Origin: Clostridia bacterium
GTDB lineage: Bacteria > Bacillota > Clostridia > Lachnospirales > Lachnospiraceae
Direction: 5' to 3'
NCBI GenBank assembly: GCA_009929525.1
Contig: SAAH01000008.1
Coordinates: 1 to 64,000 of the forward strand
DNA length: 64,000 nucleotides
Shown: positions 178-20,979 of the stretch, piece by piece
How the letters are laid out: every line of letters starts with the position of its first letter
How positions within the stretch are numbered: position 1 is the first letter of the stretch
Notes under the pieces: model-generated
The model's input: only the letters and a program-made list of their open reading frames with translations
Databases searched by the model: none
What the model was told of the DNA's origin: nothing
Translations under genes and position numbers: made by a program

Positions 178-1059
178 ATGAGCTTTTTTGAAGCAATCTT
201 AATGGGACTGGTCCAGGGGATAACAGAATTTCTTCCGGTCAGCAGTTCGGGACATCTGGCAATACTAAGCAATCTTTTGCATATTGAAACAGATACAGGT
301 ATTTTGTTTGAAGTCATGCTCCATATGGGAACACTAAGTGCGATCATATTTGCGTTCAGGACGGATATACATCATATGGTCTGGGAAGCTTTGCGTATTT
401 TTGCAGATTTGTTTTATAATTTGAGAACATATATTTATAATCGATTTCATGAAACTGATGAGAGGCGTTATAAAAAAATATTACATAATAATTACCGTAG
501 GTTTGTAACGATGCTTCTTGTATCAACAATTCCTACGGCTATCATTGGTTATACTATGAGGGGCGTGGTGGAGATCATGACCAAATCCCTTATGACCGTA
601 GGGCTTGGACTTTTGATCACAGCAGTGCTATTGATGGTGATCGATTACTGGAACTTCGGAAATAAGATTCCAAAGGATATTACAGTCAGGCAGGCACTTC
701 TTATAGGTATCTGTCAGGGGATAGGAACATTTCCAGGGATATCAAGGTCAGGCATTACGATAACGGCAGGATTGTTATGTGGTTTCAAAAGAAATTTTGC
801 AGTCCGTTATTCTTTTTTAATGTCTGTGCCGGCGATCATCGGTGCGATGATATTAGAACTCAGCGAATTTTCGGCACCGTCTATGAGTTGGGGGCTGGGG
901 GGATCCTATGCAGCGGGTATGATCGTGGCTGCAATATCCGGATATTTGTGTATTCGGGCGATGCTTGTATTGATCCAAAAGAAAAGATTTAGAATATTTG
1001 CAGTCTATTGTCTGATCGTGGGGATAGCGGCGATAGTGTGTAACTTTGTTTTGGTCTGA
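178..1059 (+). CDS. uppP: Undecaprenyl-diphosphatase (UppP/BacA)
   Basis: MSFFEAILMGLVQGITEFLPVSSSGHLAI and GISRSGITI motifs typical of UppP; start taken at second Met of ORF. Confidence 0.95.
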   Translation: MSFFEAILMGLVQGITEFLPVSSSGHLAILSNLLHIETDTGILFEVMLHMGTLSAIIFAFRTDIHHMVWEALRIFADLFYNLRTYIYNRFHETDERRYKKILHNNYRRFVTMLLVSTIPTAIIGYTMRGVVEIMTKSLMTVGLGLLITAVLLMVIDYWNFGNKIPKDITVRQALLIGICQGIGTFPGISRSGITITAGLLCGFKRNFAVRYSFLMSVPAIIGAMILELSEFSAPSMSWGLGGSYAAGMIVAAISGYLCIRAMLVLIQKKRFRIFAVYCLIVGIAAIVCNFVLV

Positions 1060-1121
1060 GATATATTACGTCAGCATAGCTGATGGACTGCTGGCAGCAA
1101 GTACACTAAGGCGTACTTGAA
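1058..1121 (+). repeat. Dispersed 64-bp three-palindrome repeat, copy 1
   Basis: Ungapped alignment by eye to the reverse complement of 20795-20858, 51/64 identical; contains TCAGC-ATA-GCTGA and AGTAC...GCGTACT. Confidence 0.7.
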
Positions 1122-20794: not shown

Positions 20795-20858
20795 TTCAAG
20801 TACGCCTCGGCGTACTCGTTGCGAGCGGCTCGTCAGCTATGCTGACATAATACATCTG
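20795..20858 (-). repeat. Dispersed 64-bp three-palindrome repeat, copy 2 (inverted)
   Basis: Reverse complement aligns ungapped over 64 nt with 1058-1121; AGTACGCC-TC-GGCGTACT, CGAGC-G-GCTCG, GTCAGC-TAT-GCTGAC. Confidence 0.75.
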
Positions 20859-20882
20859 AGCCGCTCTGCAATCCGCGGGAGG

Positions 20883-20979
20883 CTTTATCTTGGAAGGAGA
20901 TTGGACTCCCGCCAAGACTAGTTTGTTGTTTGTTCACCACCTACTAGAGGTGGGAGTCTTATCTGCTTTCAAGATAAAG
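20883..20979. other. Long imperfect hairpin (structured RNA or decayed mobile-element end)
   Basis: 20883-20910 pairs with 20952-20979 without bulges (24 WC + 2 GU + 2 mismatches by hand); internal CCACCT-ACTAG-AGGTGG alternative hairpin. Confidence 0.65.

Follow-up and report, generated by a model that had tools for sequence, protein, structure and literature searches.

A structured, gene-free repeat family of Lachnospiraceae with a putative insertion guide that probably moves in the manner of IS200/IS605 ends

In insertion sequences of the IS200/IS605 family, insertion goes into the lagging-strand template, and IS608 recognises its target by pairing with a guide located 5' of the hairpin foot, so that an altered guide redirects insertion (PMC5934647, PMC6006769). 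Other repeats of bacterial genomes resemble the family described here in single traits. With REP/BIME repeats and their TnpA_REP (RAYT) proteins it has in common that it is gene-free, high-copy, intergenic hairpin DNA, probably moved in trans by a Y1-type enzyme. It is several times longer than these repeats, however, has several covarying stems, lacks the GT[AG]G foot and has no consistent RAYT partner. REP sequences are species-specific (PMC6006769), whereas the sequence of the element is conserved across genera. Like the BOX elements of streptococci, the element is modular (5' part, optional module, 3' part), strongly folded and present in about 40 or more copies. By the published description it is set apart from BOX by another sequence and other hosts, and no guide/target pairing is described for BOX (PMC3049150).

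The window, i.e., the whole stretch of 64,000 nt of a Lachnospiraceae genome (G000) that we analysed, contains two copies of a sequence which an earlier note had described as a dispersed 64-bp repeat of three palindromes. Recalculation of the ungapped alignment between the copy at uppP/ftsK and the reverse complement of positions 20795-20858 gave the same identity as the hand count (Table 1). The next best match of the 64-mer inside the window had 34 identical positions, and 20 shuffled windows reached 37 at most. The placement was also correct: the 64-mer starts in the stop codon of uppP/BacA (open reading frame 166-1059, PF02673) and stops 20 nt short of the ftsK start (1142). The palindrome GTCAGC-ATA-GCTGA and the terminal AAGTAC..GTACTT hairpin were real, while the middle one was no independent palindrome. 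In complete copies the middle segment GAGCCGCTC forms the 3' strand of the 9-bp stem P6. The 5' strand of P6, GAGCGGCTC, occupies 20858-20866, so that all but its first base falls outside the 64-mer; the copy at 1058 does not have this strand. Selection of the middle segment as a palindrome was ruled out, as it is one strand of P6. The selection on structure that had been read from its self-complementarity was thus the right outcome, borne out by covariation, with the wrong detail. Likewise, the repeat is dispersed, with many copies in this genome and in relatives, with conserved ends and covariation, but the unit is longer than 64 bp. The 64-mer is the 3' third of a modular element of 120-190 nt, and 1058-1121 is a 5'-truncated relic of it. 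The relic comprises part of the P6 internal loop, P7, a degenerate P6 3' strand, P8 and the TTGAA end, and the covariance model scored it far below the complete copy (Table 1).

Table 1. Positions of the element copies and their parts in the window
Feature	Positions	Strand	Evidence
5'-truncated relic between uppP and ftsK	1058-1121	+	36.6 bits; 51/64 identity to complete copy
Complete long-form element, 178 nt	20795-20972	-	144.8 bits; alignment to about 40 loci in this genome; fold z -6.8 (DNA), -7.8 (RNA)
Left flank TTTATC, putative insertion target	20973-20978	-	Conserved flank; equivalent TATATC pre-exists at one clean empty site of another copy
P1 5' strand TTGAAAGCAGAT	20961-20972	-	Pairing with 20884-20899 in predicted fold
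HP1 region, long forms only	20934-20957	-	Comparison with L112: like left-end hairpin of IS605-type IS of sister species G003
Internal copy of P1 5' strand GTCTTGGCGGGAG, alternative partner of P1 3' strand	20906-20918	-	Helices 1 and 2 covary (48 sequences)
P1 3' strand, ends in guide GATAAA (20884-20889) complementary to left flank	20884-20899	-	Guide/flank complementarity (122 copies); within-genome test
P5 hairpin GCCTCCCGCGGATTGC, most conserved block	20868-20883	-	48-sequence alignment
Stem P6 (internal loop AGATGTATTAT; inner hairpin P7, 20832-20846)	20823-20866	-	Helices 5 and 6 covary
Terminal hairpin P8 and 3' end TTGAA	20795-20818	-	Helix 7: 9/9 pairs changed on both sides; fixed 3' boundary

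Comparison of the copies revealed the same order of parts from 5' to 3'. The left flank, typically TTTATC, is followed by the P1 5' strand, HP1 in the long forms only, a partial internal copy of P1, a loop of CAAT(C), the 3' strand of P1 with GATAA(A) as its last bases, P5 (GCCTCCGGCGGATTGC), P6 with an 11-nt internal loop and P7, the terminal hairpin P8 and finally TTGAA. The element contains no gene. Among complete copies, long forms mostly measured 170-190 nt, and short forms, which lack HP1, about 120-130 nt. The copies in the window's genome were diverged and often truncated, and internally deleted copies were also present. A module of 57 nt can precede P8; it was ruled out as a part of the core, since it is optional and was also found alone elsewhere. 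This module (GTCTACGTTTCACTTCGGTCGTTGCTAAACAAGTGCCACTGGCACTTAGCAACGC) is a dispersed repeat in its own right in several Lachnospiraceae (L067, L106, L044, L059, L046), with at least 11 copies in genome G029. The sister species G004 and G002 (L046, L047) harbor a related element with another P1 (TTTACTTTACAGG/CCTGTAAAGTAAA), the CGCTCCGCGAGGATGCGCA block and the 57-nt module; this element, too, is located directly behind a terminator.

In the window's genome, 12 matches to the 64-mer were detected, and the longer copy had 43 matching places, corresponding to about 40 loci. The covariance model (E ≤ 1e-5) identified 91 carriers among 299 genomes of Lachnospiraceae, each from a different genus, and when 291 genomes were drawn from the whole class, only one carrier fell outside Lachnospiraceae. 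Hominisplanchenecus faecis, Hespellia stercorisuis, [Clostridium] citroniae and several MAGs are among the carriers. Viral contigs did not match two core patterns, and the open-access literature that we searched held no description of the element. The repeat is therefore far from being confined to the two copies of the earlier note, and we conclude that the family is real, widespread and apparently undescribed. In [Clostridium] citroniae, two tandem copies were observed about 460 bp apart, with the flank duplicated (L145:2691-3317). In the window's genome, a sequence of ~78 nt forms the end of more than 30 contigs; it is a high-copy repeat or IS at which the assembly breaks.

The complete copy folded far better than its shuffles, both as DNA and as RNA (Table 1). 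A covariance model was built from 13 sequences, and 48 sequences from many genera were aligned with it; this model-based alignment took the place of an earlier one across the subfamilies, in which P1 and P6 had been misregistered. It had 94.6% paired cells, 34 of its 39 pairs had changed on both sides, and the covariation score was 0.522 versus 0.155 for shuffled and ≤0.07 for slid partners, absolute numbers that lean towards the model to which the alignment was fitted. In an unfitted MAFFT alignment, 12 of 20 predicted pairs had changed on both sides. Covariation was thus massive, and the ends were conserved.

Such strong covariation, together with the conserved single-stranded and P5 sequences, would also be expected of a structured regulatory or housekeeping RNA that became multicopy by chance, and the copies were indeed mostly intergenic and often oriented with the neighboring genes. 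Nevertheless, we regard this explanation as very unlikely. No genomic context was conserved, as flanks were unrelated between copies and sites differed between species, and conserved orthologous copies across species were largely absent. Many copies were truncated or internally deleted, and one had inserted into a transposase gene. Rfam RNA families were rejected as candidates: on the window and 16 other element loci no curated covariance model matched, only chance miRNA hairpins appeared, and there was no signature of group I or group II introns.

The insertion into the transposase gene was informative at the level of single bases. In G029, a short-form element interrupts tnpA of an IS605-type element in two loci (L247, L248), and two copies of the same IS are uninterrupted (L113, L120). 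The empty copies read TTATATC|GAGACGC and the occupied ones TTATATC-element-(C)GAGAAGC, with one base (C) ambiguous. The insertion was thus exact, caused no target duplication, and the left flank TTATATC existed before it. This was the only clean empty site. A comparison of G003:C131 to G001:C101 was compatible with insertion (TTTTTAT in the empty site), and one of G000:C238 to G003:C49 was ambiguous, as the TTTATC stretch is absent from the relative. Between sister species, divergence of orthologous sites was too great for empty sites to be read at base level. The family also included near-identical copies with fixed ends in unrelated flanks, and these copies and the empty site in G029 support mobility. 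Some movement may have been recent, as suggested by near-identical copies in G003 and by copies with equal scores in G015 and in G308. A classical MITE moved by a DDE transposase was rejected: the ends TTGAAAG.. and ..CTTGAA give no terminal inverted repeat, and no duplication was seen at the empty site. The lack of both is a trait of IS200/IS605 ends (IS608, ISDra2) and their non-autonomous derivatives.

In most copies, the five bases to the left of the insertion point were complementary to the five bases directly 5' of P5. The flank/guide pairs were TTATC/GATAA (38 copies), ATATC/GATAT (12), TCAAC/GTTGA (11), CAATC/GATTG (9), TTAAC/GTTAA (8) and TCATC/GATGA (2). Among 122 copies the mean was 4.27 Watson-Crick pairs out of five versus 3.05 when flanks were shuffled among copies, a comparison that overstates significance because the copies are related. 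Guide and flank variants also agreed within one genome, SUG271 (8:0 versus 1:4, Fisher p 0.007). Upstream of about -8 the flanks carried little signal. As an alternative to target choice by pairing, the match could come from TTTATC travelling with the element.

We also determined the orientation of the copies relative to replication in the complete genome G211, with dnaA at position 337 and the terminus assumed opposite the origin. For 40 of 46 copies the element strand was the leading-strand sequence, i.e., the lagging-strand template (p 3e-7). The strand bias is confounded with gene orientation, which has the same direction. Three copies with both neighbor genes opposed still followed replication, too few to separate the two causes.

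The left-end guide arrangement is as in IS608, which leads us to propose that the element is non-autonomous and guide-targeted and that an HUH enzyme moves it in trans as a single strand. The family would most likely move as folded single-stranded DNA and work like the ends of IS200/IS605 elements, a reading that we consider probable. The guide (GATAA and variants), just 5' of P5, would base-pair with a target of 5-6 nt, and the element would be inserted 3' of the paired target, preferentially on the lagging-strand template. The cutting would be done by an HUH (Y1-type) enzyme acting in trans, and mutated guides would retarget new insertions. IS200/IS605 elements likewise insert 3' of a short fixed target, pair their left flank with a guide lying just 5' of the hairpin foot, are retargeted by guide changes and show a bias for the lagging-strand template, which in our case is confounded with gene orientation. 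Unlike them, the element lacks tnpA and tnpB, and a search for an autonomous element sharing its ends found none. Its left and right hairpins differ, whereas IS200/IS605 ends are alike. Its guide/target stem is longer, consists of Watson-Crick pairs only and continues into the element, and a conserved core of 126 nt extends over most of its length. Because the enzyme and matching autonomous ends are missing, membership in IS200/IS605 is not established.

The Y1_Tnp search came up empty for the window's genome and likewise for G015, G313 and G321. Y1 TnpA was present in G003, G014, G029, G030, G031 and others. In the window's genome, with its diverged and often truncated copies, the mobilising enzyme may be gone. 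The TnpB fragment of this genome (L038) had no element beside it. We found neither an autonomous element with the same two ends nor a locus in which a gene lies between the element halves. Next to TnpA genes of G003, G020, G029, G030, G031 and G034, the IS left ends were inspected, and right ends, where read (G030, G031), did not match the right end of the element. In G003, HP1 of the element copies (CTCCCACCTCTATAGGTGGTGAG) resembles the left-end hairpin of an IS605-type IS (CTCCCACCTCTAAGGTGGTGAG); this sequence likeness hints at a past link.

The TnpA-REP-like transposase that the earlier note had considered could not be linked to the element, as the Y1_Tnp search of the window's genome was empty and the hairpins have no GT[AG]G feet. 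RAYT-like proteins of 200-280 aa occur in G003, G014, G030, G002, G211 and G308. RAYTs act on single-stranded DNA hairpins with a guide at the foot (PMC6006769), and in G014 two to five element-like matches lie within 8 kb of the RAYT-like gene (L261:3279-4091). This would fit a REP/BIME-like repeat spread by such a domesticated transposase (TnpA_REP), which we nevertheless hold to be quite improbable: no RAYT-like protein was found in G000, G129, G204, G240 and G313, and the other RAYT genes examined had no adjacent elements. A REP/BIME assignment also failed by the foot, as the bases 5' of P5 were GATAAA, GATATA or GTTRA and those 5' of P8 mostly GCAG or GCGC, and by flanking of a RAYT gene with repeats, with no Y1 protein in G000 and elements next to RAYTs only in G014.

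The distribution of Y1 proteins bears on the nature of the enzyme as well. No canonical TnpA was detected in G211, which has 46 copies, nor any Y1 homologue in the window's genome and G313. On this basis, a gene-free mobile nucleic acid with a reprogrammable guide, moved by a non-Y1 enzyme or by a reaction at the RNA level, has a limited but appreciable probability. A rival explanation of low probability is spread by an enzyme that does not belong to the Y1 IS200/IS605 group, or by an RNA copy reverse-transcribed into T-rich sites behind terminators. It would agree with the many copies in genomes with no detectable Y1 protein (G000, G313, G015, G321) or with RAYT-like proteins only (G211, G308), with the stability of the structure as RNA and with the placement of copies, many of which start within a terminator T-run. 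Sites behind terminators are also where group IIC introns settle, and in these introns, as in IStrons and group I introns, the 5' flank pairs with an internal guide. In contrast to all of these, the element is too short, has no intron core and has no match in Rfam, and the missing intron signature argues against this explanation. Furthermore, multicopy transposases are easily lost from draft genomes and MAGs, and the guide position and strand bias fit a Y1 mechanism.

If guide-directed movement of single-stranded DNA is true, natural elements do what was engineered for IS608, with the target rewritten through a change in a short DNA guide. With a longer Watson-Crick stem that spans the insertion point and no fewer than five guide classes, they would then represent a natural data set for testing guide-directed single-strand insertion. 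The family would also account for a large, unannotated class of intergenic structures in gut bacteria, seen in about 30% of the genera sampled from Lachnospiraceae, copies of which could otherwise be mistaken for regulatory RNA.

Some IS605-type ISs of the carriers share flank sequences with the element. The left flank of several (L112, L121, L251, L252, L120) is TTTAAC, which is also a target of the element, and most have GTTA just inside. For an IS of G029 and G031 (L123, L244, L249) the left flank is CTTGAA or TTTGAA, like the right end of the element, and in L123 this IS sits directly behind a degenerate element.
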